From positions 1 to 64,000 of the forward strand of contig JAJRYT010000085.1 in the NCBI GenBank assembly GCA_024275635.1: DNA of 64,000 nt, read 5' to 3'. This document shows, in pieces, positions 39,706 through 64,000 of the stretch (position 1 is the stretch's first letter; every line of letters begins with the position of its first letter). The translations under genes and the position numbers were made by a program. A model generated the notes under the pieces. That model was given only the letters and a program-made list of their open reading frames with translations. It had not been told where the DNA came from and did not search any database. The stretch comes from Chloroflexota bacterium (GTDB taxonomy: Bacteria; Chloroflexota; Anaerolineae; Promineifilales; Promineifilaceae).

Positions 39706-41256
39706 TCAATCCCCCGCCCCGCGTAGTGACCGCCGCGCCCTGGATGGCTCCGGCAGGGGGATGTGTACCTTCGCCCGCTCCGCTTCAATCACCCGCCCTT
39801 CCATCACCTCCCACACCGAAACGGCCGGGAACAGCTTGAGGAAAACGGTGAACAGGAAGATGAACAGGGCGAAGGAAGCGGCCGTAATAGCGTATTCCGT
39901 CATCGTTGGCTGGTAAGTGGCGTAATCCACCAGGTAGGGATGCGTCATCGTCGGGGCGATTATGTTCCACCGCTCCAGCCACATGCCCACCAGGACGAAT
40001 ATGGCGGCCAGCGCCGTCGCCCCGACCGGGCGCGTCTTGAACCAGGCGGCCACGCCCATCCCGGCCAGGAACAGGGAGAGGGCCAACGCGCCGATGACCA
40101 CCGGCAGGGAAGCGAACATGGGCAGGCGTCCGGCCAGGGAGAGGGCAGACAGAAGGGCAATGACGGCCGTTCCCCACGACGCCAGCGGATGAAACAGTCC
40201 CTTCTTCACCGCCCGCGCCGGCAGCAGCAGCGGGGCCACCATGATCCAGAACGCCATCACCATCAGCGCCACCATCGTCCAGAAGCCGGGCGCAAATTCG
40301 CCCCACAGCTTGCTGGCCAGCACCGGAAACTCATTCGCCTCCTGCCCAGCGGCCAGCGTCAGGTATTCGGCATAGGTGAAATACATCCAGACCGCGTTCA
40401 TGACGATGAAGAGCAGGCCCAGATTGCGGTATTGGCGGCCGGTGATGTAATCTTCCAGCCCCATCACCCGGCGGACGACGGTCATCGCCACGAACAGAGC
40501 GCCGATGCCGGAAAAGATGGCGCCGACGACGAAGTAGGGGCCGAAAATGGTGGAGTGCCAGCCCGGCTGCACCGTCGTCGCCAGAATCCAGGAGATGATG
40601 GTATGGACGGAGACGGCGATGGGGATGATGAGCACAGCCATAACGGCAATCGCTTTTTCCAGGCGCAGCCACTGCTGCCGGTTGCCGCGCCAGCCGATGG
40701 CCAGCAAGGTGTACAGCCGCTTTTGCCAGCGACGGCCGTTTTCCGGGAAGTGGTCGCGCAGCAGGGCGGCGTCGGGGATGAGGGGCAGGTACAGGTAGGT
40801 GAGCGATCCCAGCAAATAGGCGGTCACAGAGATGGCGTCCCACAACAGCGGCGATTGCAAACGGCCGTAACGAAACACGTAGAAAAACCGCTCCGGTCGG
40901 CCCATGTCTATGACGATTTGCAGCGAACCGACAATGAGGGCAACGGCCGTGATCGCTTCCGCCACCCGCGTAATGGATCGCCGCCACTCTGCCCCCGTCA
41001 CCCGTAAAATCGCCGAAATCAGCGTCCCGGCGTGGCTGATGCCGATGAAAAAGACGAAGTTGACCATGTAAACGCCCCAGAACACCGGCCTTTGCATCCC
41101 CGTCTCCCCCAGGCCAAAGAGTACCTGACGGCCGTACATGAACGCTCCCCAGCCCATCACCGCCAACAGCAGCAGAATAAACCCCCAAAACCGGGGCGAC
41201 GCCGTAAACAACGGCTCCAGTAGTTTTGCCTTATCCTTCTCATCAACTTTGAGCAT
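39706..41256 (-). CDS. NrfD/PsrC-type membrane subunit, module 1
   Basis: 516 residues with about ten membrane helices, longer than the ~450-residue paralogue at 60607. Typical segments are PVFWGVYMVNFVFFIGISHA, YGRLQSPLLWDAISVTAYL and PGWHSTIFGPYFVVGA. Members exchange electrons with quinones, or act in alternative complex III and polysulfide or tetrathionate reductases. ATG 41256 has CGAGGA at good spacing; a TTG at 41262 is an alternative. It lies between the ferredoxin and small-subunit genes. Confidence 0.9.
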   Translation of the reverse strand: MLKVDEKDKAKLLEPLFTASPRFWGFILLLLAVMGWGAFMYGRQVLFGLGETGMQRPVFWGVYMVNFVFFIGISHAGTLISAILRVTGAEWRRSITRVAEAITAVALIVGSLQIVIDMGRPERFFYVFRYGRLQSPLLWDAISVTAYLLGSLTYLYLPLIPDAALLRDHFPENGRRWQKRLYTLLAIGWRGNRQQWLRLEKAIAVMAVLIIPIAVSVHTIISWILATTVQPGWHSTIFGPYFVVGAIFSGIGALFVAMTVVRRVMGLEDYITGRQYRNLGLLFIVMNAVWMYFTYAEYLTLAAGQEANEFPVLASKLWGEFAPGFWTMVALMVMAFWIMVAPLLLPARAVKKGLFHPLASWGTAVIALLSALSLAGRLPMFASLPVVIGALALSLFLAGMGVAAWFKTRPVGATALAAIFVLVGMWLERWNIIAPTMTHPYLVDYATYQPTMTEYAITAASFALFIFLFTVFLKLFPAVSVWEVMEGRVIEAERAKVHIPLPEPSRARRSLRGAGD

Positions 41257-41267
41257 CACCAATTCCT

Positions 41268-41325
41268 CGATATAGTGCGTATTACGTAATACGCACTACG
41301 CACTACGCACTACGCCCAACACATC
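41268..41325. repeat. CGCACTA short tandem repeat
   Basis: CGTATTACGTAATACG palindrome followed by CGCACTACGCACTACG words, between ferredoxin and NrfD genes. Confidence 0.75.
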
Positions 41326-42052
41326 ACCCTTCCCGCAAATAAATCACCTTTGGCCGCGTGCCCACATCCTCCAGCAGGCGGAAGGCGCGCGGGTTTTGCG
41401 ACAGCATTGCTACCGTACTGTCCGGATCATCCAGGTCGCCAAAATAACGCGCTTTGGCCGTACAGGTTTGCACGCAGGCAGGCACATACTCATCCGGGCG
41501 GAAATCGCGCCCCTCCGCCGCTGCCCGATCCTGGGCCGCATAAAGCCGCTGGATGCAGAAGGTACACTTTTCCACCACCCCCCGGAGACGAACGGCCGGC
41601 CCTTCCAAATCATCTCTTCCCACCACCCGATCCGGGTTCAGGCAGCGCGCCATTTCAGGCGACCAGTAGGGATCGTGCCAGTTGAAGTAACGCGCCCCAT
41701 ACGGGCAGGCGACTGTGCAAAAGCGGCAGCCGATACAGCGGGCGTAATTTTGGCGCACCGTCCCATTCTCATCCTGGAAAGTGCCCTGGACGGGGCAGAC
41801 CTTGACACAGGGCGGGTTTTCACAGTGCATACACGGCCGTGGCAGATAGCGGGTGCGTACATGCGGATACGCGCCCGCCTCTTCCGTTCCGTTAACCGGA
41901 TTGGGAAACACATCATTCCAGCGGATCGCCCGCCCCATCGCCGCTTCCTCCGGCGAAATGGCCGGTGTGTTGTTTTCGTGGCGGCAGGCGATACTGCACC
42001 CCTGGCAAGCGACGCATTTATCTAAATCAACAATCATGGCCCACTTTGTCAT
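41324..42052 (-). CDS. Four-cluster [4Fe-4S] ferredoxin subunit, module 1
   Basis: 242 residues with cysteine groups CVACQGCSIACRHEN, CMHCENPPCVKVCP, CIGCRFCTVACPYG and CTFCIQRL...CVQTC. This matches PsrB/PhsB/TtrB/NrfC electron-transfer subunits. It carries electrons between the molybdopterin subunit and NrfD. No signal peptide is visible; it would travel with the Tat-signal-bearing catalytic subunit. GAGG precedes ATG 42052. It is nearly collinear with the module 2 copy at 61962. Confidence 0.92.
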   Translation of the reverse strand: MTKWAMIVDLDKCVACQGCSIACRHENNTPAISPEEAAMGRAIRWNDVFPNPVNGTEEAGAYPHVRTRYLPRPCMHCENPPCVKVCPVQGTFQDENGTVRQNYARCIGCRFCTVACPYGARYFNWHDPYWSPEMARCLNPDRVVGRDDLEGPAVRLRGVVEKCTFCIQRLYAAQDRAAAEGRDFRPDEYVPACVQTCTAKARYFGDLDDPDSTVAMLSQNPRAFRLLEDVGTRPKVIYLREG

Positions 42053-42069
42053 GGTTTGCCTCGTTACTT

Positions 42070-42137
42070 GTTATCCGTATTCCTCCGCATTCCGTGTTCC
42101 GTTTACGGATTACGATTCACGGCTTACGGAATATACC
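42070..42137. repeat. CCGTATT/CCGTGTT heptamer repeat with inverted part
   Basis: CCGTATT, CCGCATT and CCGTGTT words followed by inverted ACGGATTACG and ACGGAAT. It covers the end of the molybdopterin gene. Confidence 0.7.
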
Positions 42138-44503
42138 TTCACCCGCGTATTCGTCATCGCCGCCAGACCGGTGAACGGTTCACTGGCCGGATTCATGATG
42201 GACATCCCATTAACGCCGCGATTGCGGGCGAAACGGCCGACGGCCGTATGCCCCATGTTGTGCGGCAAATTGACCACGTCCAGGCGCAGGGCTGGAACCA
42301 ATTTCAACGTCGTTTGCAGCTTGCCAAACGGGCTTTCCACAACGACCGTCTGACCATCCGCCAGCCCCATCTCCCGCGCCGTCTCCGGGTTCATCTCCAG
42401 CCAGCTCGTCCACGTCTCCCGCACCGTCATGCCGCTGATCTCCTGCATGGATGGTAGATTGGCGTTGTAGCTGTGCGCCCCCAGGCTCATCAGCGTCACC
42501 ACATTCAGCAGGAATGGGTACGCGGCTTCCTCCCCGGCATAGACAACATCCTCATGATGGGGCAAGTAAAGGGCGTCGCCGGAAACGGCCGTCTCCCACT
42601 CCTGGCTCCGCTCCGAGAGATGACAGAACAATTCACGGCTGAAGAAATCGAAACGGCCGTCCCGCGCCGCCAGACGCCGATCCTTGCCTACCACCTCATT
42701 GATCCAGCGCGCGCTGCCCCGGCGGGCAAAGCGGTAGCCCGGCGTCAGCCACACCCCCAGCTCCGCCAGCGTCTCCCAATCCGTGCCCACGTTTTGCAGC
42801 CGGTCTTGCAACAGTTCCTTGAATGACCCCCAAGGAAACGCTGCCGCCACCGGGTCGCCCATCGCCTGGGCCACCTTCAGCAAAAAGTCGCCGGTAGGCA
42901 TCGTGTCATACAGCGGCTCCACTACCGGCTGGCGCAAAGCCGCGCCGGGATACCCCAGCCCTTCCATGTAATCATCCTGCCACCGCTCCAAAAACGTCGG
43001 TTCCGGCAGCGCCAGGTCGGCGTATTGGGCCGATTCGTCCATGAACGCAGCAAAAGAGACGATGAAGGGGATTTTCTCGAAGGCGCGGATGAACTTCTCG
43101 CCGCCGGGCGTTTCATAAACCGGGTTGGCGTCGTAGAGGAACAGCGCTTCAACCGGGTAGCCGTCCAGCACCCGGTCGGCGGCGGCCTGGTAAGCGTGGC
43201 GGGCCAGGGGGAAATGGGTTCCCGCGCCGTCTAATCGCTCGGCTTGACGGCCGTTCTCCGCCACCGGGTCGTCCGGCAGCTCAGGCCAGGGCGGGCAGGG
43301 CGGGTAGCGCTGGGTCAGCGCCCCGCCGGGAACCTCCAGGCTGCCCACCAGCGCGTTTAGACAGTGAACGGCCGTCGCCGCCGCCAGCCCGTTCAGACTG
43401 CCGTTCAGCAGGCCGCCCTTCCCCGGCAAAATCGCCACCGCTGGCGGGTTCCCGGCAAATTCGCCCGCCAGCCGGCCAATCGTCGTCGCCGGCACGCCGG
43501 TGATTTGCTCCACCCGGCGCGGATCGTAATTCTCCAGCACAAAATTCTTGAACCCCTTGCGCGTCTTCCCCTGGTCATCCTTAAAATCTTCAAAACCAAA
43601 GGCGTAATTGTGGACGAAATCAGAATCAAACTGGCCCGTTTTGATGATGACGTTAGCCATCGCCAGCGCCAGCGCGCCATCCGTCCCCGGCGCGATGGGG
43701 ATCCACTCGTCCGCTTTGGCCCCGGTGATCCCCTGGCGCGGGTCAATGTGAACCAGTTTGCCCCGGTTGGCCCGGCCGCGGCGCAGGTAGCCGTACCCGG
43801 CGATGGTCCGCTGCGGATTGCGCCCCGCTTCCAGCAAACTGGCGCCAAAGCTGAGGACGTAGCTGCTGTTTTCCAGGTCGTAAACGGGCAGATCGTACAC
43901 GCCCTGGGTGAACAGATTGGCGAGTTTGGCCGCTTCGATGTTCAAACTGTCGTGGGAGATGGCGTTGGGGGAACCGACGGCCGTCATAAACCGCTCCAAA
44001 AAGCCGCGCATCTGCCCCCGCGTCTCCCCGTACAGCAGCGCCGCCCGCTCCGGACGCCCGGCCGCCCGCAAATTCCCCAATTTCTCAGCCACCAATCTCA
44101 CGGCTTCATCCCAGCCAATCGCTTCCCATTCCCCCGCGCCCCGCGCCCCAACCCGCCGCATCGGCCCGGTAAGCCGGTCGGGGTTGTAGAGCAATTCCGG
44201 CGCCGCCTGCCCTTTGTGGCACAACGCGCCCAGGTTTACCGGGTGCATGGGGCTGCCTTCCACTTTGACCAGGTTGCCGTCCACAATCCGGGCCAACATG
44301 CCGCAGCCGCTGGGGCAAAGGGCGCAGACGGTGGGGATGATCTGGCTGTTCCCACTGGTTTCCAGGCGGGCGGGCAGGGTGATGGGATTGGGTACGGCCG
44401 TCATCTTGTACACCAGCCGCGGCGCAGAAATCATCGCCGCCGACCCGGCCACCCCGGCCGACAGGCGCAAAAATTTCCGGCGTGAAATCGTTTCGTTTAT
44501 CAT
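42110..44503 (-). CDS. Molybdopterin oxidoreductase catalytic subunit, module 1 (Psr/Phs/Ttr-like)
   Basis: 797 residues. A Tat signal (SRRKFLRLSAG) is followed by a [4Fe-4S] motif, CALCPSGCGM then CHKG. The molybdopterin-binding domains follow (GETRGQMRGFLERFM, LSFGASLLEAGRNPQR, HIDPRQGITGAKADEWIPI, GKGGLL, LPEPTFLERWQDDY, RRGSARWINE). At the usual Mo-ligand site the sequence reads ISHDSLNIEAA, with no obvious Cys; the true ligand is unclear. The start is ATG 44503 (GGAGGG upstream). It overlaps the cytochrome stop by one base (TGATG), implying translational coupling. The substrate is unknown. Confidence 0.88.
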   Translation of the reverse strand: MINETISRRKFLRLSAGVAGSAAMISAPRLVYKMTAVPNPITLPARLETSGNSQIIPTVCALCPSGCGMLARIVDGNLVKVEGSPMHPVNLGALCHKGQAAPELLYNPDRLTGPMRRVGARGAGEWEAIGWDEAVRLVAEKLGNLRAAGRPERAALLYGETRGQMRGFLERFMTAVGSPNAISHDSLNIEAAKLANLFTQGVYDLPVYDLENSSYVLSFGASLLEAGRNPQRTIAGYGYLRRGRANRGKLVHIDPRQGITGAKADEWIPIAPGTDGALALAMANVIIKTGQFDSDFVHNYAFGFEDFKDDQGKTRKGFKNFVLENYDPRRVEQITGVPATTIGRLAGEFAGNPPAVAILPGKGGLLNGSLNGLAAATAVHCLNALVGSLEVPGGALTQRYPPCPPWPELPDDPVAENGRQAERLDGAGTHFPLARHAYQAAADRVLDGYPVEALFLYDANPVYETPGGEKFIRAFEKIPFIVSFAAFMDESAQYADLALPEPTFLERWQDDYMEGLGYPGAALRQPVVEPLYDTMPTGDFLLKVAQAMGDPVAAAFPWGSFKELLQDRLQNVGTDWETLAELGVWLTPGYRFARRGSARWINEVVGKDRRLAARDGRFDFFSRELFCHLSERSQEWETAVSGDALYLPHHEDVVYAGEEAAYPFLLNVVTLMSLGAHSYNANLPSMQEISGMTVRETWTSWLEMNPETAREMGLADGQTVVVESPFGKLQTTLKLVPALRLDVVNLPHNMGHTAVGRFARNRGVNGMSIMNPASEPFTGLAAMTNTRVKVYSVSRES

Positions 44504-45102
44504 CAATTCCCTCCACACCGCGGCGCATCCGGCGACGGGTTACAACCGAATTCGGCCGGGGGCAGCGGGTAGCTCATCGGCGGTGGCTCCAGTTCCCCAG
44601 AGGCGATCCCAGCGGTAAACGCCACCAACGCTTCCAACTGCTCGTCCGTGAACTGCCCTTCAAAGGGGGGCATCCCGCTCCGCTCCCGGCCGCGCAGGAT
44701 GGTGGAGCGGATTTTAGACTGACGCAGGCCGGTTCCAGTGATTGCTGTGCCGAACAGTCCTTCGCCCGCCACGCCATGACAGCCAGCGCAGGCGATGTCG
44801 TACAGTTCCGCCCCATCTGCCACGCCGGGCGCGGCCAGGATGTTGCCCAACTGCGGCAGTTGATCCGGCCGGCCTCGCGCCGCCCACAGCAGCCCGCGTA
44901 GGGTGCGCGGCCCGCCGCCGCCGGGATTGACGTGGCAGGTTCCGCACGCCTCGCCGGTGCGAGCGGCGTATTCGGGCAGGGCGTGAACGGACTGGCTGTT
45001 AGCAGTCAGTTTGACGGCCACAATCAGCGCGACCAACAATCCGGCCAGTCCAACCCACTGTCCTATTTTTCGAATGCTGACTTTGTTCATGGCGCATTTC
45101 AC
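44503..45102 (-). CDS. Diheme cytochrome c, module 1
   Basis: 199 residues with one N-terminal helix (~12-32) serving as signal or anchor. Two heme motifs are present: CGTCH, and CAGCH in IACAGCHGVAGEG. A Met ligand is likely in SGMPPFEGQ. The second half has the normal class I cytochrome c shape. It probably passes electrons to or from the molybdopterin complex, whose gene it overlaps. An alternative start at 45090 is possible. Confidence 0.87.
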   Translation of the reverse strand: MKCAMNKVSIRKIGQWVGLAGLLVALIVAVKLTANSQSVHALPEYAARTGEACGTCHVNPGGGGPRTLRGLLWAARGRPDQLPQLGNILAAPGVADGAELYDIACAGCHGVAGEGLFGTAITGTGLRQSKIRSTILRGRERSGMPPFEGQFTDEQLEALVAFTAGIASGELEPPPMSYPLPPAEFGCNPSPDAPRCGGN

Positions 45103-46172: not shown

Positions 46173-46300
46173 GCGATTGGAGACTGACATACGCTTTTGA
46201 AATACCAATAGGAATTTTAGCCTAATTCTCAAAAAACAATTGCCAAATGGCGTTTTCAGGAGTAAAGTTTTTAATTAATCGTTTCCAGGAGAAAATGCTT

Positions 46301-46567
46301 ATGAGCCTTCAGCAGATGTTCAGACGAGAAGCGTCCAAACGCATGGCGCTTTCAGCCGGTATCGTCGCACCCGATTCGGCCCGCTGCGTGCAGTGCGGGA
46401 TATGCACCTATAACTGTCCAATTGGCATTGATGTACGCCGACATGTCTGGCAGGAACAGACCGTGTCAGACAGTCATTGTTTAACCTGTGGCGAGTGTAT
46501 CACACGTTGCCCGCGCGGGGTGTTGAGTTTTCAGCGCGCTAATTTGGAAGCTGAGGCGGCAAAATGA
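46301..46567 (+). CDS. Two-cluster [4Fe-4S] ferredoxin (HdrC-like)
   Basis: 88 residues with two clear motifs, CVQCGICTYNCPIG and CLTCGECITRCPRG, as in the iron-sulfur half of HdrC-type proteins. It probably links the FAD oxidoreductase (overlapping by 4 bp, ATGA) to another carrier. ATG 46301 gives CAGGAG nine bases upstream; an ATG at 46295 would be too close. It is the first gene of the multiheme cluster. Confidence 0.85.
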   Translation: MSLQQMFRREASKRMALSAGIVAPDSARCVQCGICTYNCPIGIDVRRHVWQEQTVSDSHCLTCGECITRCPRGVLSFQRANLEAEAAK

Positions 46568-47874
46568 AGTATGTGATCATTGGTTCCGGCGTAGCAGGGG
46601 TAGCAGCAGCGGAAGCCATTCGCAGTCAGAATACCGCTGGAGAGATTGTCTTGATCGGCGACGACCCGCACGGTTATTATTCGCGTCCGGGACTGGCTTA
46701 TTATTTGAGCAGCGAACTGCCAGATAAACAGTTATTTTCCCACACCAAAGAGGATTTCCGCAAACTGCATTTGCATCGTATCAAGGGGCAGGTCACGCAA
46801 ATCAACCCGGTACAGCATCAAATAGAGGTGACGCCTAACGGCCGTTTACATTACGATCGCCTGCTGCTGGCCGTTGGCTCCACGGCCGTTCGCCTGAAAA
46901 CGCCAGGGGCTGACCTGAAAGGGGTCGTCAAGCTGGATCATTTAGAAGACGCCCGTCAAATCGTGAAACTGGCGCGCAAGGCGAAAACGGCCGTCGTCAT
47001 CGGCGGCGGCATCACAGCCCTGGAACTGGTCGAAGGATTAACGGCCCGGGGGGTCAAAGTACATTACTTCCTGCGCGGCGACCGGTACTGGAAAAATGTC
47101 CTCGATGAAGAAGAATCACGCATCATCTTACAGCATTTGCAAGATGACGGCGTCAAGATTCATCTTCACACAGAAGACGTCGAAATCCTGGGGAAAAAGG
47201 GGCGCGTTGTTGGCGTTCGCACCAAAGACGGCCGGACCATAAAGTGTGGAATGGTTGCCTTTGCCATCGGCATACGCCCCCGCATCGAACTGGCGCAGGC
47301 GGCCGGACTCAAAGTTGATCGCGGCGTTTTAGTCAACAGATATTTACAAACCAGCGCCAAAGATATTTACGCCGCCGGCGACGTAGCGCAAGTGTACGAT
47401 CCACTTTCCGGACAATTTGTGTTAGATAGTCTTTGGGGGCCGGCGCGTGAGCAAGGGCGAACGGCCGGGTTAAACATGACAGGTCAACAGACAACCTACG
47501 TCAAATCAGCCCCCTTCAACGTCACCCGGCTGGCCGGATTAACCACAACCATCATCGGAACTGTCGGTCACGGCCAGGACGAAGACCTGGTGGGTATTGC
47601 TCGCGGCGACAGTGAAACCTGGCGGCAAATGCCAGACGCTCTCATCGCTCAATCCGGATTTGATGTAAACCGGCTGCGCTTAATGATTGGCGAGAAGCGG
47701 CTGCTGGGCGCCATTGTCATGGGTGACCAGACGCTCTCAACGCCATTGCAAAAAATGATTACTGATGGGGTAGATATTACGTCCATTCGCGCTAACTTAT
47801 TGCAATCAGATGCACCCATCGCCGACATCATTGCTGATTATTGGACAGAATGGAGGGTACAACATGCGTCGTAA
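46564..47874 (+). CDS. FAD-dependent pyridine-nucleotide oxidoreductase
   Basis: 436 residues with GSGVAGVAAAEAIR at the N-terminus (FAD), a second Rossmann motif VVIGGGITALELVEGL (NAD(P)H) and AAGDVAQVYDP (FAD ribityl). It belongs to the rubredoxin/ferredoxin reductase and NirB-like branch; no redox-active CxxC of disulfide reductases is present. It likely reduces the overlapping ferredoxin or the next membrane protein with NAD(P)H. The cluster context points to electron export. Confidence 0.88.
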   Translation: MKYVIIGSGVAGVAAAEAIRSQNTAGEIVLIGDDPHGYYSRPGLAYYLSSELPDKQLFSHTKEDFRKLHLHRIKGQVTQINPVQHQIEVTPNGRLHYDRLLLAVGSTAVRLKTPGADLKGVVKLDHLEDARQIVKLARKAKTAVVIGGGITALELVEGLTARGVKVHYFLRGDRYWKNVLDEEESRIILQHLQDDGVKIHLHTEDVEILGKKGRVVGVRTKDGRTIKCGMVAFAIGIRPRIELAQAAGLKVDRGVLVNRYLQTSAKDIYAAGDVAQVYDPLSGQFVLDSLWGPAREQGRTAGLNMTGQQTTYVKSAPFNVTRLAGLTTTIIGTVGHGQDEDLVGIARGDSETWRQMPDALIAQSGFDVNRLRLMIGEKRLLGAIVMGDQTLSTPLQKMITDGVDITSIRANLLQSDAPIADIIADYWTEWRVQHAS

Positions 47875-48685
47875 CCGCAGTATCGAGCTTTGGCTGGCGC
47901 TGCTAGCCATGATAGGCATCACGGCCGTTTACGCGTTTGTCGTCGCATCCACGAACGAAATCCCGGCCGCCGGCGAATTCTTTGGTCATAGCCTGGGTGT
48001 TTTTGGCTTTTTGTTGATGCTGATGACAGAAACGCTTTACAGCTTGCGCAAGCGCCGCCGCCGCGCCAGTTGGGGAAAAATGTCCGCTTGGCTCAAATTC
48101 CATATTTTCACCGGCCTGGTCGGGCCATTCATGGTTTTATTGCACAGCTCCTGGAAGTTCAACGGGCTGGCCGGAGCGGCGCTGCTGCTGACGATCATCG
48201 TGGTACTCAGCGGGATTGTGGGGCGGTATATTTATACGGCCGTTCCCCGCACAGTAGATGGCGCCGCTGTCGAAGCGGTCGAACTGGAACGACAAATCGC
48301 CGCCACCGACGCTCAGATTCAAACATACATGGCCTCTCGCCCGCAAACATCCACCGCCCTGGCGCAGCGGCTGGCCGCCCTGCCCGACGTCTCCCAGGCC
48401 GGCATCACGGCCGTGCTGGGACGAGCGCTCATCGAATGGGAATACCGCCGCGCCTGGAAACGAGAAAGCAGCCACGCCGACGCCCAGGTACGCGAACAAA
48501 TGAAACAAATCGAAGAAATGCTCCACCGCCAACAACTGCTCAAACGTCAGGTTTCCTCACTCGCCATGGCCCGCCGCCTGTTAGCCGTCTGGCACACCGT
48601 ACACATTCCCATCGGCATGGCTTTATTCACCGCTGCCTTCATCCACCTGGCCGGCGCCTTGTATTTTGCTACCTTCTTGCGCTAA
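47864..48685 (+). CDS. Multi-helix membrane protein with conserved-looking histidines (cytochrome b-like)
   Basis: 273 residues, about five membrane helices with a ~100-residue soluble loop (~130-235) of coiled-coil character. Membrane histidines occur at residues 42 (GHSLG), 80 (LKFHIFTG), 94 (LLHSSW) and 244, 247, 261 (WHTVHIPIG...AFIHLAG), a layout that suits heme b binding or ferric-reductase-like electron transfer. It overlaps the FAD gene by 11 bp and precedes the 23-heme cytochrome. The family is not recognised with certainty. Confidence 0.75.
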   Translation: MRRNRSIELWLALLAMIGITAVYAFVVASTNEIPAAGEFFGHSLGVFGFLLMLMTETLYSLRKRRRRASWGKMSAWLKFHIFTGLVGPFMVLLHSSWKFNGLAGAALLLTIIVVLSGIVGRYIYTAVPRTVDGAAVEAVELERQIAATDAQIQTYMASRPQTSTALAQRLAALPDVSQAGITAVLGRALIEWEYRRAWKRESSHADAQVREQMKQIEEMLHRQQLLKRQVSSLAMARRLLAVWHTVHIPIGMALFTAAFIHLAGALYFATFLR

Positions 48686-48703
48686 CGAAACGGGGGAAGA
48701 AAG

Positions 48704-50482
48704 ATGAAAAAGAAACCGCTCGGTTGTCTGACTGCAAATGGATTGATTGCTTTTGTGATTACTTTACTGCTGATTGGCGGCGGCGCTTCAATCAACGGCG
48801 GCAAAATGTTCGCGCCCGGCAAATTAAACGCCCAGACTGGTGAATCGTTGGGCGGCGTTACTTCCCATGCAGATTTAAGCGCAGAGTGCGACGCCTGCCA
48901 CGCCGCGCCCTGGGGCGCCGACAAAATGGGAGATCGCTGCATGGCCTGCCATACAGAAATCAGCGCCCAGTTGCAAAACGTCTCCAGTCTGCATGGTTCA
49001 TTAATGCAAGATGTTCCTGACTTACAATGCCGCGCCTGTCACCCTGAACACCGGGGACCAGATGCATCGCTGGTGGAGATGGACCCGGCCACCTTCCCGC
49101 ATGACGCAGTCGGGTTTGCTTTGACAGCCCACGCTCAAAAAACTGATGGAACTGCTTTCGCCTGCGGCGACTGCCATCTACAAAATGTGGCTTCATTTGA
49201 AGCCGCCGTTTGCGCCGACTGCCACCAGCAAATAGACAGCGCCTTCACCGAAGCGCATACGGCCGCTTACGGCAGCGACTGCCTGGCCTGCCATGACGGC
49301 GTCGAAACGTACGGCGCCAATTTCGACCACAACCAGGCCGCCTTCCAACTTGTTGGCAAACACGCCGCTGTCAACTGCGCCGACTGCCATACCAACGCCC
49401 ACGCCATTGATGATTTCAAGAACACAGCGACGGAATGTGCGGCCTGCCATCAAAAAGACGACCCTCACAACGGCAACTTTGGTGATGATTGTTCCGTCTG
49501 CCATACCCCGGAAGACTGGGAAGCCACCAGCTTTGACCATAATTTGCTGGCCTTTAAGCTGGAAGGGAAACACGGCCGTGTCGAGTGCGAACAATGCCAC
49601 ATCAACAACACCTTCAAAGGCACGCCCACCGACTGCTACGCCTGCCACCAGAAAGACGACCAACACAACGGTCAGTTCGGCACAGATTGCGCCGCCTGCC
49701 ATACCCCATCAGATTGGGACAACGTCAGCTTTGATCATAATTCGTTCGCCTTCCCGCTGGAAGGGAAGCACGCCCGTGCAGAATGCGACGAATGCCACAC
49801 CAACAACACCTTCAAAGGCACGCCCACCGACTGCTACGCCTGCCACCAGAAAGACGACCAACACAACGGTCAGTTCGGCACAGATTGCGCCGCCTGTCAC
49901 AATTCGTCTGACTGGGATAACGTCAGCTTTGACCACAATTCCTTCGCCTTCAAGTTGGAAGGCAAACATGCCCGCGTAGAATGCGAAAAGTGCCATGTGA
50001 ACAACACTTTCCAGGGCACGCCGACCGACTGCTATGCCTGCCATCAAAAAGACGACAACCATAACGGGCAGTTCGGCACAGAGTGCGGCGCCTGCCATAC
50101 GCCGGCAAGCTGGGAGGATGCCACCTTTGATCACAGCCTGGCCGCTTTCCCGTTGACCGGCGCCCATGTGAATGTGCGCTGCGAAAAGTGCCACGTGAAC
50201 AACACCTTTGCCGGAACGCCGTCCCAATGTGTCGCCTGCCACGCCGACCCGGCTTTCCACGCCGGGGCATTCGGTGCGGACTGCGCTTCCTGCCATTCCA
50301 CATCAGGCTGGCGGCCGGCGGAATATCGCGGCTCGCACCCCGGCATTGCCGACGAGGGTGGGTTTGGTATTCGTCATGGAAACACAACCTGCCGCACCTG
50401 CCACACGAACACGGTGCGCGACTATACCTGTCTGGCCTGTCACAGCAACAACCAGGGCGGCGAAGGCGGCGGCGATGATTAG
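48704..50482 (+). CDS. 23-CxxCH multiheme cytochrome c
   Basis: 592 residues with one N-terminal helix (~12-28) and 23 CxxCH motifs counted directly (e.g. CDACH, CMACH, CRACH, CYACH, CAACH). The middle is a 66-residue repeat with three CxxCH per unit, at DNA level ~198 bp, built on INNTFKGTPTDCYACHQKDD and related lines. Such proteins form electron wires on or beyond the membrane. As last gene of the ferredoxin/FAD/membrane-protein cluster it could be the outer end of the path. The N-terminus has no lipobox. The TAG stop overlaps the repeat at 50481. Confidence 0.9.
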   Translation: MKKKPLGCLTANGLIAFVITLLLIGGGASINGGKMFAPGKLNAQTGESLGGVTSHADLSAECDACHAAPWGADKMGDRCMACHTEISAQLQNVSSLHGSLMQDVPDLQCRACHPEHRGPDASLVEMDPATFPHDAVGFALTAHAQKTDGTAFACGDCHLQNVASFEAAVCADCHQQIDSAFTEAHTAAYGSDCLACHDGVETYGANFDHNQAAFQLVGKHAAVNCADCHTNAHAIDDFKNTATECAACHQKDDPHNGNFGDDCSVCHTPEDWEATSFDHNLLAFKLEGKHGRVECEQCHINNTFKGTPTDCYACHQKDDQHNGQFGTDCAACHTPSDWDNVSFDHNSFAFPLEGKHARAECDECHTNNTFKGTPTDCYACHQKDDQHNGQFGTDCAACHNSSDWDNVSFDHNSFAFKLEGKHARVECEKCHVNNTFQGTPTDCYACHQKDDNHNGQFGTECGACHTPASWEDATFDHSLAAFPLTGAHVNVRCEKCHVNNTFAGTPSQCVACHADPAFHAGAFGADCASCHSTSGWRPAEYRGSHPGIADEGGFGIRHGNTTCRTCHTNTVRDYTCLACHSNNQGGEGGGDD

Positions 50483-50613
50483 GGTTCGTTCAAAATTAAC
50501 TTTGCAGTTTGCTGGTAATTGGTAATTGGTAATTGGTAATTGAGTAATTGGGTAATTACCAGTTACCAATTACCTGGTTACAATTTTTCAAACGCCAAAG
50601 TTATAAACGAACG
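50481..50613. repeat. Long intergenic repeat, copy B (inverted relative to 26538)
   Basis: Reverse complement of copy A with a few extra GGTAATT words. It starts inside the stop codon of the multiheme cytochrome gene. Confidence 0.85.
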
Positions 50614-50686
50614 CGCCCTTAGCGAGAAGCTCAGGAATCTGGCGCTTTATACGAATCCAGACGGGCTGGAATAAACAACCAAAAAA

Positions 50687-50721
50687 GACGCCGATTGTGC
50701 TAACCAATCGGCGTCTTTTTT
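50687..50721. terminator. Bidirectional rho-independent terminator
   Basis: GACGCCGATTG and CAATCGGCGTC form an 11-bp stem flanked by AAAAAA and TTTTTT, between convergent genes. Confidence 0.88.
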
Positions 50722-50811
50722 GTTTTGCTGGCCCACCAAACGGCGCTGGTGAAAACAGCCGTACTCTCAACGTCGCCCAACGCCAGGAAAAGGCAGGTTA
50801 ACCGCCGGTTG

Positions 50812-60606: not shown

Positions 60607-61959
60607 CTACACCTGCGCCGTCCGTTCGCCAAAGCGACGCGGCTCAGGCCGTTCCGGTTCTGGTTCGTGTTCCAAAGAATCCACCGTCTCCCATAATGGA
60701 ATGATGGGGAATAACCGGGTAAAGATAGCGTACAACAGGCCCATGCCGCTGAACAGCGCGGCCGTGATCAGCCACTCTGTCCAGGTGGGACGATAGCTGC
60801 CCTGCACCAGTTCGTACAGTAGCCGGGGGCGCGTTTCGGTGGGGATAATCACCACGTACCGCTCCATCCACATGCCGATATTGATAAGCACTCCCGCCGT
60901 CACCATCCAGGGAATACTGTCCTTGGCCCTGAAGATGAAGATGAACAGGGGGATGAAGAAGACCAAAATCGTCATCCCCCAAAAGATGAGATAGAAATCC
61001 CCGGTAAACTTCTGCCAGAACACTTCCATCTCTTCCGGCAGGCTGCCGTAGTAAGTGGTCAGGAATTCGGCGATCATCATGTACAACCAACCCAGGGTGA
61101 AGGTGATGAGCAGCTTACGCAGGGAGTTGAACAAACCGATGGGTAAGGCGTCTTCCAGATGGTACAGTTTCCGCAAAATCGCTAAGACAATCACGACGGC
61201 CGCTGTGCCGGAGAAGATTGCGCCCAGCAAGAAGAATGGCCCGATTAAGGCGGTGTGCCAGCCAGGTTGGATGGTCATGCCAAACACCCAGGAGACAACA
61301 GTATGAACAGTGATAACGATCATAGTCATCAAAATCGCCATCGCATCCAGCACCCGCTCCAGGCGGTGATACTGATGGGAATCCCCTGTCCAGCCTAACG
61401 CCAGGATTTCATACATGCGGTGTTTCCAGGGGGGGACGTCGGTCAGCCGGTCCCGGCAGAGGGCAATGTCGGGAATGAGGGAAAGATAGAAGAAAACAAT
61501 GCTGGAAAGCAGGTAGAGGGAAACGGCCGTAAAGTCCCACAACAGCGGCGATTGGAAACGGCCGTACCGGATCATATTCAACACCCGGTCCGGACGGCCC
61601 ATATCAATCACAATACAGGCCACGCCAAACGGCAGGCTAAACAGCGTAATCGCCTCCGCCGCCCGCGTCAGCGGCTTGCGAAAATCTGCCCCCGTCACCC
61701 GCAAAATTGCCGAGATAAACGTGCCGGAGTGCGCCAGGCCAATAAAAAATACAAAATTGGTGATGTATACGCCCCAATAAACCGGGCGGTTCATTCCCGT
61801 CACGCCCAGACCCAGCACAAACTGACGCGCCCAGGCAGCGATCCCGGCCAGCAGGATTGACGCCAGGACGATCCAGAGAATCCGGTCGCGGCCAACCCCC
61901 TGTTTGACCGGCGCCAGAATAATTTGTTCATGTTCATTTTTAGGATGCCATGTAGCCAT
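60607..61959 (-). CDS. NrfD/PsrC-type membrane subunit, module 2
   Basis: 450 residues, about eight to nine helices, with PVYWGVYITNFVFFIGLAHS, YGRFQSPLLWDFTAVSLYL and PGWHTALIGPFFLLGA, matching module 1. The long C-terminal extension of the module 1 protein is missing. GAGGTT overlaps the end of the ferredoxin gene just before ATG 61959. Quinone-side subunit of the complex. Confidence 0.9.
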   Translation of the reverse strand: MATWHPKNEHEQIILAPVKQGVGRDRILWIVLASILLAGIAAWARQFVLGLGVTGMNRPVYWGVYITNFVFFIGLAHSGTFISAILRVTGADFRKPLTRAAEAITLFSLPFGVACIVIDMGRPDRVLNMIRYGRFQSPLLWDFTAVSLYLLSSIVFFYLSLIPDIALCRDRLTDVPPWKHRMYEILALGWTGDSHQYHRLERVLDAMAILMTMIVITVHTVVSWVFGMTIQPGWHTALIGPFFLLGAIFSGTAAVVIVLAILRKLYHLEDALPIGLFNSLRKLLITFTLGWLYMMIAEFLTTYYGSLPEEMEVFWQKFTGDFYLIFWGMTILVFFIPLFIFIFRAKDSIPWMVTAGVLINIGMWMERYVVIIPTETRPRLLYELVQGSYRPTWTEWLITAALFSGMGLLYAIFTRLFPIIPLWETVDSLEHEPEPERPEPRRFGERTAQV

Positions 61960-61961
61960 GA

Positions 61962-62678
61962 TTAACCTTCCTCCAAATAAATTGTCTTAGGACGGGTGCC
62001 CGCTTCTTCCAGCAAACGGAAAGCGCGCCGTTCCTGGGACAACTGGGAAACGATTGAATTGGGGTCTTCCAGGTCGCCAAAGAAGCGGGCCTTACCAGTG
62101 CAGGTTTGCACACAAGCTGGGACGTATTCGCCAGAACGAATTTCGCGCCCTTCCGCTTCGGCGCGGGCGCGGGCCTTATGCAGACGGTGGATGCAATAAG
62201 TGCATTTTTCTACCACGCCGCGCGGCCGGATCGCTGGCCCTTCCAGATCGCCGTTGCCCATAACCCGATCCGGATTCAGGTGCTGTTCCAGCCCTTCTTC
62301 CCAGGAGGGAGCATACCAGTTAAAGTAGCGCACGCCGTAGGGGCAGGCAACGGTGCAGAAGCGGCAGCCGATGCAGCGGGCGTAGTTTTGGTGAACGATG
62401 CCTTCGTCCCCGATGAATGTGGCCTGCACCGGGCAGACCTTGACGCAGGGTGGGTTTTCGCAGTGCATACACGGCCGTGTCAAAAACCGCGACTGTTCAC
62501 TGGCGATATCCCCTTCCTCAGCCCGTAGCGGGAACACTTCGTTCCACAACATTTCCCGGCCAAGTTCCGCCTCTTCCGGTGAAACAATAGGTGTGTTATT
62601 TTCAAAGCGGCAGGCGATGCTGCATCCTTGACAGGCCACACACTTGTCTAAGTCTATAACCATTGACCATCTTGCCAT
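61962..62678 (-). CDS. Four-cluster [4Fe-4S] ferredoxin subunit, module 2
   Basis: 238 residues with CVACQGCSIACRFEN, CMHCENPPCVKVCP, CIGCRFCTVACPYG and CTYCIHRL...CVQTC groups. It is nearly collinear with the module 1 ferredoxin, including the central LNPDRVMGNGDLEGPAIRPR region. GAGG precedes ATG 62678. Transfers electrons between the molybdopterin and NrfD subunits. Confidence 0.92.
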   Translation of the reverse strand: MARWSMVIDLDKCVACQGCSIACRFENNTPIVSPEEAELGREMLWNEVFPLRAEEGDIASEQSRFLTRPCMHCENPPCVKVCPVQATFIGDEGIVHQNYARCIGCRFCTVACPYGVRYFNWYAPSWEEGLEQHLNPDRVMGNGDLEGPAIRPRGVVEKCTYCIHRLHKARARAEAEGREIRSGEYVPACVQTCTGKARFFGDLEDPNSIVSQLSQERRAFRLLEEAGTRPKTIYLEEG

Positions 62679-62689
62679 GATATTCCTCG

Positions 62690-62795
62690 TTATTCGTATT
62701 CCGTATTCCGTATTCCGTATTCCGTGTTCCGTGTTCCGTGTTCCGTGTTCCGTGTTCCGTGTTCCGATTACGGCTTACAGCTTACGGATTACGGC
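62690..62795. repeat. CCGTATT/CCGTGTT heptamer repeat
   Basis: About ten tandem CCGTATT or CCGTGTT words with inverted ACGGCTTAC words at the right end, between the molybdopterin and ferredoxin genes. Confidence 0.88.
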
Positions 62796-64000
62796 TACGC
62801 CGCATATACCTTCACACGGGTATTAGTGAAGGAGGCCAGGCCGGTAAACAACTCGCTGGCCGGATTCATGATTTCCAGGCCGTTCACGCCGCGATCTTTG
62901 GCCCAACGGCCGATCGCTTTGTGTCCCTGATTATGAGGCAGGGCAACCACGTCCCGGTGGATATTTTTGACCAGCCGCAGTTTGGTCTGAACCTTGCCGA
63001 AAGGGCTTTCTACCCAGACCTGCTGTTTATTTTGCAAGCCCAGTTCGGCGGCCGTTTCCGGGTTCATTTCCACCCAACTGCCCCAGCGCTCGCCGACCAC
63101 CATGCCGCTGATTTCTTGCAGCGTGGGTAGGTTGGCATTGTAGCTGTGCGGCCCCAGGCTCATCAATGTGACTACGTTGAGAACAAAGGGGAATTCCTTT
63201 TCGCCGCCCTCATAGATCACATCTTCCTGGTGGGGCAAATAAAGCGCGTCGCCGCTGGCGCCCGGATTCAGGGCGGCCAGTTCGTCGTCGCTCAGGTCGC
63301 CCAGGATACAGCTTAGTTCACGGCTGAAGAAGTCGAAACGGCCGTCACGCGGCGCCCGTCTCCGGTCCGCGCCAACCACCTCGTTAATCCACTTCTCACT
63401 ACCGCGGCGGGCAAAACGGTAACCCGGCGTAATCCAGACGCCTAGCTCCGTCAGCGTCTCCCAATCCGTACCCACATTTTGCAGCCGGTCTTTCAGCAGC
63501 GCTTCAAATGAATCCCAGGGCATCGCCTGCGCCACCGGGCCGCCCATCTTTTGGGCTACCTGGAGCAAGAAATCACCTGTGTTCATCGTGTCGTGCAGCG
63601 GCTCCAACACCGGCTGGCGTAAAGCCACACCGGGGTAACCCAGCCCTTCAATGTAATCATCCTGCCACCGTTCCAGGAACGTCGGTTCCGGCAGCGCCAG
63701 GTCAGCGTACTCGGCCGATTCATCCATAAAGGTGGCGAATGATACGATAAACGGAATTTTCTCAAATGCCTGGATGAATTTTTGACCGCCCGGTGTTTCA
63801 TAAACCGGGTTGGCGTCATAGAGAAACATCGCTTCTACCGGGTAGCCATCCAGCGCCCGGTCAGCGACGGCCTGGTAAGCGTAACGACCAACAGGGAATA
63901 CAGTTCCCGCGCCATCTATCCGTTCCGCCTCGCGTCCCGCTTCGGCCGCCGAATCAGCCGGTAGTTCCGGCCAGTCCGGGCAGTCCGGGTAACGCTGTAT
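62795..64000 (-). CDS. Molybdopterin oxidoreductase catalytic subunit, module 2 (5' end outside the window)
   Basis: The C-terminal ~400 residues are in the window and match module 1 closely: LYDANPVYETPGG, LPEPTFLERWQDDYIEGL, RRGSEKWINEVVG, MSLGPHSYNANLP and WVEMNPETAAELGL. The frame stays open to the right edge (…VGRYAYQAVADRALDGYP before the first in-window Met at 63829), so the N-terminus with Tat signal and cluster motif is not visible. It carries the catalytic Mo site of the second complex. The partners follow in order. Confidence 0.9.
   Translation of the reverse strand: MQRYPDCPDWPELPADSAAEAGREAERIDGAGTVFPVGRYAYQAVADRALDGYPVEAMFLYDANPVYETPGGQKFIQAFEKIPFIVSFATFMDESAEYADLALPEPTFLERWQDDYIEGLGYPGVALRQPVLEPLHDTMNTGDFLLQVAQKMGGPVAQAMPWDSFEALLKDRLQNVGTDWETLTELGVWITPGYRFARRGSEKWINEVVGADRRRAPRDGRFDFFSRELSCILGDLSDDELAALNPGASGDALYLPHQEDVIYEGGEKEFPFVLNVVTLMSLGPHSYNANLPTLQEISGMVVGERWGSWVEMNPETAAELGLQNKQQVWVESPFGKVQTKLRLVKNIHRDVVALPHNQGHKAIGRWAKDRGVNGLEIMNPASELFTGLASFTNTRVKVYAA

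Follow-up and report, generated by a model that had tools for sequence, protein, structure and literature searches.

A conserved Chloroflexota operon for a putative electron path from NAD(P)H to a 23-heme cytochrome

Gene organization and the redox proteins

The window analysed here is a 64,000-nt stretch of a Chloroflexota contig (JAJRYT010000085.1, positions 1 to 64,000). Four genes on its forward strand, at 46301-50482, form a translationally coupled operon (Table 1). The fd and fdr genes overlap by 4 nt and fdr and mp by 11 nt, and mp and cyt are separated by an 18-nt gap containing the motif GGGGGAAG. The four overlapping or closely spaced genes described in an earlier sequence-only reading were thus all found at this place and strand. 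The fd reading frame is open from an ATG at 46247; the ATG at 46301 is the best-supported start, since AGGAG (46287-46291) stands 9 nt before it. By consensus scan, a strong stem-loop followed by a T tail lies 3' of the operon.

Table 1. Features of the operon and its surroundings (positions in the window).
Feature	Position	Strand	Description
fd	46301..46567	+	Ferredoxin, two [4Fe-4S] motifs, CVQCGICTYNCP and CLTCGECITRCPRG
fdr	46564..47874	+	Pyr_redox_2-type FAD/NAD(P)H oxidoreductase, NirB/AorC/PadH-like; lacks redox-active CxxxxC
fdr Arg171 codon	47074..47076	+	Invariant in 97/97 homologues; end of beta-2, NAD(P) domain
mp	47864..48685	+	Five-helix membrane protein, predicted diheme b core (model)
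mp H42	47987..47989	+	Invariant; start of helix 2 near outer face
mp H80 (48101-48103), H94 (48143-48145)	48101..48145	+	Helix 3 (H73-94); invariant 54/54; predicted inner/outer heme ligands
mp insertion, residues about 131-240	48254..48583	+	Predicted cytosolic helical coiled coil (H131-157, H160-172, H187-203, H207 onward)
mp H247 (48602-48604), H261 (48644-48646)	48602..48646	+	Last helix (H207-271); invariant; predicted to pair with H80 and H94
cyt	48704..50482	+	23-heme c-type cytochrome, single N-terminal membrane anchor
Five c7-like triheme units	49337..50338	+	Residues 212-545, hemes 7-21; heme spacing 32-16-18 repeated
198-bp tandem DNA repeat	49442..50115	+	3.4 copies, encoding triheme units (TRF)
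Terminator-like element	50680..50722	+ and other strand	18-bp stem, T tail; consensus scan only

The fd protein carries two C..C..C...C clusters (2x[4Fe-4S]), the motifs of which are conserved in an alignment with 90 homologues. Its neighbor fdr matches Pyr_redox_2 (PF07992, 7e-54), and the GxGxxG, YSRPGLAY, GGGxT and AAGD motifs are conserved in a 97-row alignment, from which a conserved CxxxxC is absent. With two Rossmann domains, FAD and NAD(P) motifs and no disulfide centre, fdr belongs to the ferredoxin/NAD(P) reductase class of this family, and Pfam gave no FAD_binding_6 or NAD_binding_1 match in it. It scores 171 bits against the PadH model, below the NCBIfam cut-off of 475, and no separate AorC model is among the 25 NCBIfam matches listed for it. 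The nearest solved relative is 8c0z_E, by molecule name a ferredoxin:NADH oxidoreductase-like subunit of aldehyde oxidoreductase. Like the AorC and PadH NAD+ reductase subunits, fdr is of a flavoprotein family that exchanges electrons between NAD(H) and clusters of the ferredoxin type, but the operon has no aldehyde or phenylglyoxylate enzyme and fdr lacks the ribose-site Glu. Alignment to AorC and Nox places this Glu of NADH-linked relatives one residue before the Arg171 position, and the invariant Arg in place of the NADH-type pattern hints at NADPH as the cofactor.

Exactly 23 CXXCH motifs were counted in the 592 aa of cyt, the number given by the sequence-only reading, as compared with 0.29 on average and at most 3 in shuffles of the same composition. 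The protein matches Cytochrome_C7 (PF14522, 1.3e-24) and Cytochrom_c3_2 (PF14537, 3.8e-20), both above cut-offs, and its repeated CXXCH units thus place it with the c7/c3 multiheme cytochromes. The first of the triheme units is 70 aa long, and the other four follow a strict 66-aa period with 47-86% mutual amino acid identity. A phmmer search of cyt against PDB sequences returned nothing meaningful. All 61 cytochromes adjacent to mp genes have an N-terminal anchor with the heme domains after it, and none of the 61, cyt included, has a hydrophobic segment after the first heme.

Histidines and predicted fold of the membrane protein

The mp protein has eight His in 273 aa, five of them invariant in 54/54 aligned homologues. 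The earlier label "histidine-rich" is thus loose wording; the invariance of these five weighs more. Four form two pairs, H80/H94 and H247/H261, each 14 residues apart and on parallel helices, and H244, close to H247, is present in 50/54 homologues. The fifth invariant residue, H42, may serve as a third ligand, a quinone site or a docking site. The cytochrome b561 superfamily has quinone-reactive members; given these and H42, mp may contain a quinone site. No conserved cysteine pair was found in the alignment. The AF2 model of mp has a pLDDT of 87, and an RKR following helix 2 suggests by the positive-inside rule that the coiled-coil insertion lies inside and the C-terminus outside.

No Pfam or NCBIfam match to mp was found at E 1e-3. 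Among the 54 family members, 29 match cytochrome b561 (PF01292) weakly at E up to 1, the best at 1.9e-6, and ten each weakly match Ferric_reduct and DUF4405; the mp of the window reaches 11.8 bits against PF01292, under the Pfam gathering score of 30.1. Searches of mp with phmmer and hmmsearch against PDB sequences also gave nothing meaningful. When the whole-length model was compared with the PDB by Foldseek and VIA, the matches were swamped by coiled coils, and a 184-aa homologue in which the insertion is missing was therefore modelled. Its top VIA match is superoxide oxidase 5oc0 over 131 residues at an rmsd of 3.1 A and Z 10.6, with a Foldseek E above 0.8; VIA Z values of 8-10.6 are in the range reachable by helical bundles without kinship. 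Other leading VIA matches of this homologue are the designed diheme protein 4D2, cytochrome b6, STEAP2, the S. pneumoniae NADPH oxidase, b561, Dcytb and HyaC. Foldseek found nothing under E 0.001 for either model.

From these models mp is predicted to be a diheme b protein, with H80/H247 holding an inner and H94/H261 an outer heme. With regard to the heme ligand pairs asked for by the sequence-only reading, mp has conserved candidate His pairs and the coiled-coil-free homologue a predicted diheme b-like fold; the pairing itself is a prediction. The invariant His and the predicted fold led us to reject a pure coiled-coil or transport protein. As a small diheme b helical bundle, mp would resemble superoxide oxidase, cytochrome b561 and HyaC (5oc0, 4o6y, 4gd3; PF01292); however, these trade electrons with quinone, ascorbate or hydrogenase, whereas mp contains an inserted coiled coil and is encoded beside nicotinamide reductases.

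Conservation and distribution of the gene set

The proposed check of co-occurrence across genomes came out in favor of the set. For 44 GTDB loci, 3.5 kb or more of sequence is available on either side of mp; in 42 of these, fd, fdr and a multiheme cytochrome all lie within 3.5 kb of it. In relatives the full set was found at 14/16 loci, the remaining two being near contig ends. This recurrence across loci and genomes rules out a local oddity of one MAG. The partner cytochromes have 10-30 hemes and are encoded upstream rather than downstream at some loci. Trees display two clades, each with its own gene order, and this genome carries one copy from each. Pairwise distances among the set members correlate at 0.76-0.84 (shuffled maximum 0.15), which together with the conserved neighborhood denotes co-inheritance, not physical contact.

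Departures from the full set were also found. One locus (L051) has mp without fd, fdr or a multiheme cytochrome, and a distant subfamily has an fdr-fd-mp trio with no multiheme cytochrome within 13-18 kb around. At another locus (L163) a distant mp homologue lies between a FAD_binding_6/NAD_binding_1/Fer2 protein and an anchored 7-heme cytochrome; only here does a separate FNR-type protein stand beside an mp homologue. This arrangement suggests that the membrane part also receives electrons from another, unrelated NAD(P)H reductase, and the reductase swap together with the cytochrome-less trio supports mp as a reductase-fed membrane wire. In this genome, other multiheme cytochromes (C113, C117 and C131) are located without fd, fdr or mp. 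The cytochrome type is therefore not exclusive to the set, and the expectation that it would be missing elsewhere without its partners did not hold, while the fd-fdr-mp trio is specific.

Carriers are mostly Anaerolineae and also include Chloroflexales ('Ca. Chloroploca', 'Ca. Oscillochloris' and 'Ca. Viridilinea'), so far almost only in Chloroflexota. Actinomycetota were rejected as another phylum of carriers. A strong match came from one MAG contig (L045), and just two others of 246 Actinomycetota genomes gave weak, partial matches, so that this contig is likely mis-binned.

Proposed electron path and alternative readings

The anatomy of the operon, the phylum-wide set, the invariant ligand-like His and the predicted diheme b fold of the homologue lend good support to the conduit interpretation of the sequence-only reading. 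The electron flow, its direction and the acceptor would be as follows. In the cytoplasm fdr would oxidize NAD(P)H, probably NADPH, and deliver single electrons to the pair of [4Fe-4S] clusters in fd. From fd, in a putative complex with a heme-loaded mp, they would enter the inner heme b (H80/H247), cross the membrane to the outer heme b (H94/H261) and continue to the first hemes of the membrane-anchored cyt. Its c7-type triheme stack would lead them across the cell wall; a mineral, a humic substance, a partner cell or a soluble oxidant are candidates for the acceptor outside. Since no proton-pumping part is present and the electron would move down the membrane potential, the module would be a valve for redox disposal or extracellular reduction, not a coupling site. 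We regard such an outward transmembrane NAD(P)H:multiheme-cytochrome oxidoreductase, bypassing the quinone pool, as the probable function. The absence of Foldseek matches, the L051 locus and the upstream cytochromes at some loci count against it. The chances are about even for a wider proposal, in which NADPH directly charges surface multiheme wires, independently of quinones, by way of a flavoprotein and a ferredoxin that are split into two proteins and a diheme b protein whose family is undescribed, with exchangeable modules, two unrelated input reductases and 9-30-heme outputs, almost only in Chloroflexota so far.

The NOX/FRE/STEAP proteins (S. pneumoniae NOX 8qt6, STEAP2 7tai) offer a route like the proposed one, from NAD(P)H through FAD and membrane b heme(s) to an extracellular acceptor. 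They hold two bis-His b hemes between two membrane helices with His about 13-14 apart, a spacing that the predicted ligand pairs of mp, 14 apart, would fit, and their fold is among the best structural matches of the 184-aa homologue. However, they have a fused FNR domain and reduce O2 or Fe3+ directly, whereas here a Pyr_redox_2 fdr, a 2[4Fe-4S] fd and mp are separately encoded and the proposed output is a multiheme c cytochrome.

The known cytoplasmic-membrane EET gates CymA, CbcL/MtrH/MtoC and ImcH are quinol-linked (PMC6295460), and both the weak PF01292 kinship of mp and its invariant H42, which has no assigned role, would suit a quinone-linked complex. The mp protein would then be a b561/CbcL-like menaquinol:cytochrome c oxidoreductase, or act in reverse, with fd and fdr feeding, draining or conditionally reducing the complex. 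We consider this unlikely, as fd and fdr are conserved as strongly as the cytochrome, the distant subfamily drops the cytochrome yet retains fdr-fd-mp, and an FNR/2Fe-2S reductase replaces fd and fdr at L163. The commonest partner of mp is thus a nicotinamide reductase, for which a pure quinol oxidase would have no use. The CbcL/MtrH/MtoC proteins, with as many as 23 reported heme motifs (PMC6295460), combine, as predicted for mp and cyt, a multiheme c cytochrome with a b-type membrane domain, but they are quinol oxidases with both parts in one polypeptide; in the window operon and related loci b and c are in separate genes, and the operon also encodes an NAD(P)H reductase and a ferredoxin. 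The NapC/NirT-type domain of CymA and ImcH had no Pfam or NCBIfam match in any of the four proteins. Unlike in the Mtr/Pcc porin-cytochrome conduits, no match to a beta-barrel porin was found among the four genes or the scanned neighbors.

Electrons might also flow inward, from Fe(II), sulfide, a partner cell or a cathode through the cytochrome, and the module would then supply biosynthesis with reduced ferredoxin or NAD(P)H, e.g. in phototrophic Chloroflexales. Members of this order carry the set, and the nearest solved relative of fdr belongs to an aldehyde oxidoreductase, an enzyme which reduces NAD+. This direction is improbable: from most external donors NAD(P)+ should lie uphill in potential and against the membrane potential, the operon is without a bifurcating or ion-driven part, and the non-phototrophic Anaerolineae form most carriers.

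The diheme membrane protein MsrQ receives electrons from a cytosolic flavin reductase and passes them to an extracytoplasmic redox protein. This precedent and the trio without a nearby cytochrome would accord with a transmembrane delivery of reductant to maturation or repair systems outside the cytoplasm, as in MsrQ/MsrP or the thiol reduction of cytochrome c maturation, the multiheme cytochrome being a client and not a wire; this is very improbable, because outside that one subfamily a cytochrome of 9-30 hemes adjoins mp at nearly all loci, the other multiheme cytochrome genes of this genome lie apart from the trio, mp is without a conserved cysteine pair and no Ccd/Dsb-type gene was seen in the loci inspected. 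The MsrPQ output is a molybdoenzyme, unlike the 9-30-heme cytochromes here, whose reductase and ferredoxin are in the operon.

No description of the four-gene set, of the Chloroploca/Oscillochloris multiheme cytochromes or of NAD(P)H-linked or quinone-independent multiheme conduits was found in the searchable open-access literature, and as far as this literature goes the system is indeed unnamed. Very large multiheme cytochromes of varying heme number, with no porin partner found, were reported in Anaerolineales on bioanodes (PMC7399161); the cytochromes here are similar in these respects, but in the accessible part of that report the bioanode cytochromes are described without a reductase, ferredoxin or membrane gate. 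A Chloroflexota isolate can both deliver current to electrodes and draw it from them (PMC5808234). The outward NAD(P)H-linked module is a concrete candidate gate from metabolism to large multiheme cytochromes in cells that lack the outer membrane of Gram-negative bacteria, beginning at NAD(P)H and not at menaquinol, in many Anaerolineae and phototrophic Chloroflexales. If this function is correct, it would provide a compact four-gene part linking NADPH to an electrode, and the 9-30 hemes in otherwise similar loci would form a natural series for wire length.

The operon and its conservation

The sequence-only reading had placed a four-gene candidate electron conduit in this region, ending in a 23-heme cytochrome. 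All four genes lie there on the plus strand, overlapping or nearly so, and encode a two-[4Fe-4S] ferredoxin (fd), an FAD/NAD(P)H flavoprotein (fdr), a five-helix membrane protein (mp) and an anchored multiheme cytochrome (MHC) of the c type (cyt). The heme number is borne out by 23 CXXCH motifs, with an average of 0.29 in composition-matched shuffles. Five triheme units span hemes 7-21; four of these keep to a strict 66-aa period, which appears at the DNA level as a 198-bp tandem repeat.

Features of the operon and its surroundings
Feature	Position	Strand	Match or content
fd	46301-46567	+	Pfam Fer4 dicluster
fdr	46564-47874	+	Pfam Pyr_redox_2
mp	47864-48685	+	no Pfam or NCBIfam match at E 1e-3
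cyt	48704-50482	+	Pfam Cytochrome_C7/c3
Heptamer repeat	50513-50557		TGGTAAT, 6 tandem copies, just 3' of cyt
Hairpin 3' of operon	50680-50722		strong, terminator-like (consensus scan only)
Qrc-like operon	39706-45102	-	NrfD-type membrane protein, QrcC-like 4Fe-4S protein, QrcB-like molybdopterin-fold protein, small c-type cytochrome
Second Qrc-like cluster	60607-64000	-	continues to ~65.8 kb of contig

The mp gene is present in 15 of 59 genomes comprising this genome and its relatives, with a second copy in this genome on contig C50. With more flanking sequence, mp at each of these hits adjoins an MHC of 9-23 hemes, and fd and fdr lie next to them, or about 5.5 kb off in one case, unless the contig ends. 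A scan of GTDB genomes gave 169 relatives, 80 of which were kept, Chloroflexota nearly throughout. Forty-four of these loci extend 3.5 kb or more to each side of mp, and 42 of them carry fd, fdr and an MHC of at least 7 hemes on the same strand within 3.5 kb of mp, so that the gene set proposed from sequence does co-occur across genomes. The two exceptions are L104, with fd and fdr about 5.5 kb away, and L051, where mp stands alone as checked by tblastn. The L051 gene (9001-9819) is intact, and the 9 kb to each side of it hold no ferredoxin, flavoprotein or MHC. Counted on the largest partner MHC at each GTDB locus, heme numbers run from 10 to 30. Of 400 genomes sampled across the phylum, 61 match mp, among them carriers of a distant subfamily taken up below.

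Elsewhere in this genome, MHC loci on contigs C113, C117 and C131 lack fd, fdr and mp. The C113 locus (L165:2946-10627) clusters four MHC genes of 6-16 hemes, at least three with a GPHGxYxATTDACAGCHR-like start; response regulators are nearby, and it has no relation to the mp module.

Predicted properties of the proteins

The AF2 model of mp (pLDDT 87) shows four helices, a long helical insertion and a last membrane helix; the insertion is absent or shortened in many members. H42, H80, H94, H247 and H261 are invariant in 54 homologues, and H244 is kept in 50. H80/H94 and H247/H261 are each 14 residues apart; given the RKR that follows helix 2, the positive-inside rule would orient the helices of both pairs from inside to outside. 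A 184-aa member was also modelled (pLDDT 87), and its best structural match was E. coli superoxide oxidase (Z 10.6, 3.1 A over 131), a Z score attainable by helical bundles without kinship. The other best matches were the designed diheme 4D2, cytochrome b6, STEAP2, the NADPH oxidase of S. pneumoniae, cytochrome b561, Dcytb and HyaC. Foldseek gave no significant match for the full-length or 184-aa model, and weak Pfam matches of members are to b561, Ferric_reduct and DUF4405. Because so many heme b membrane proteins rank at the top, together with the invariant His pairs and the weak Pfam matches, mp is best read as a putative diheme b protein.

The nearest solved relative of fdr is 8c0z_E, an NADH-linked aldehyde oxidoreductase subunit of the AorC type. 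Two dinucleotide folds are present, and the homologue alignment contains no disulfide centre. The ribose-binding site has Glu in 8c0z_E and Nox; the fdr family has Leu/Met/Ile/Val, rarely Gln, followed by Arg in 97 of 97. The missing Glu and invariant Arg suggest NADPH as the cofactor.

Each of the 61 mp-adjacent cytochromes has a single anchor at the N-terminus with no hydrophobic stretch after it, and their hemes are therefore probably outside the cell, tethered to the membrane. A short LGC or SC motif recurs in eight window-group sequences (48704-48760 and orthologues). The motif, whose conserved Cys lies on the anchor's cytoplasmic side, does not resemble a lipobox.

Evolution and modularity

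Across 82 loci, the pairwise distances computed for fd, fdr and mp show correlations of 0.76-0.84 (best of 500 shuffles, 0.15), which establishes that the genes are inherited together but not that their products touch. The tree from the concatenated sequences splits into two main groups with different gene orders. The copy in the window falls in the first, fd-fdr-mp-MHC with MHC upstream in some; the C50 copy falls in the second, mostly mp-MHC-fd-fdr-MHC or MHC-mp-fd-fdr. Within the fd-fdr-mp-MHC kind, some members of Chloroflexales (Chloroploca, Oscillochloris, Viridilinea) group as a supported clade with 15-18 hemes, and 9 of 28 good genomes of their family carry the set.

The distant subfamily, from large-genome Chloroflexota, keeps fdr-fd-mp with no MHC in the surrounding 13-18 kb. 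In these trios (L145-L152) a long C-terminal tail is frequent on fdr, and L151 carries a fusion of the Fe-S protein with cyclic-nucleotide-binding domains. At L163:6152-9697 a distant mp homologue is flanked by a FAD_binding_6/NAD_binding_1/Fer2 protein and a 7-heme cytochrome, both anchored; thus a second, unrelated NAD(P)H reductase can occupy the mp input. This swap is the strongest argument that mp is fed by cytosolic NAD(P)H reductases, with the MHC as outlet.

Proposed electron path and neighbouring clusters

Electrons would pass from NAD(P)H through FAD of fdr to the 2[4Fe-4S] clusters of fd, then to the inner and outer heme b of mp, and onward through the N-terminal MHC hemes and the triheme array to an external acceptor. 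Since they would travel down the membrane potential, the module should be a route for disposal or for reduction outside the cell and not an energy-coupling site. The genes, their motifs and conservation and the predicted fold are observed; which cofactors are bound, the order and direction of transfer and the acceptor are inferred.

The module resembles a split NADPH oxidase or an MsrQ-type relay, but its output is an MHC. It falls outside NOX/FRE in having no fused FNR domain, outside CbcL in having separate genes, and outside CymA/ImcH in having no NapC/NirT domain. Known gates of extracellular electron transfer are quinol-linked (PMC6295460). From Chloroflexota, papers describe large MHCs (PMC7399161) and current in both directions (PMC5808234); the open-access PMC text consulted gives no account of the mp gate, which may be described elsewhere.

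Two Qrc-like clusters lie to either side of the operon. Proteins of the first score under the QrcB/QrcC cut-offs. The second, whose B and C subunits are 76% and 68% identical to those of the first, adjoins a NarJ/ferredoxin-like chaperone and a two-component system.
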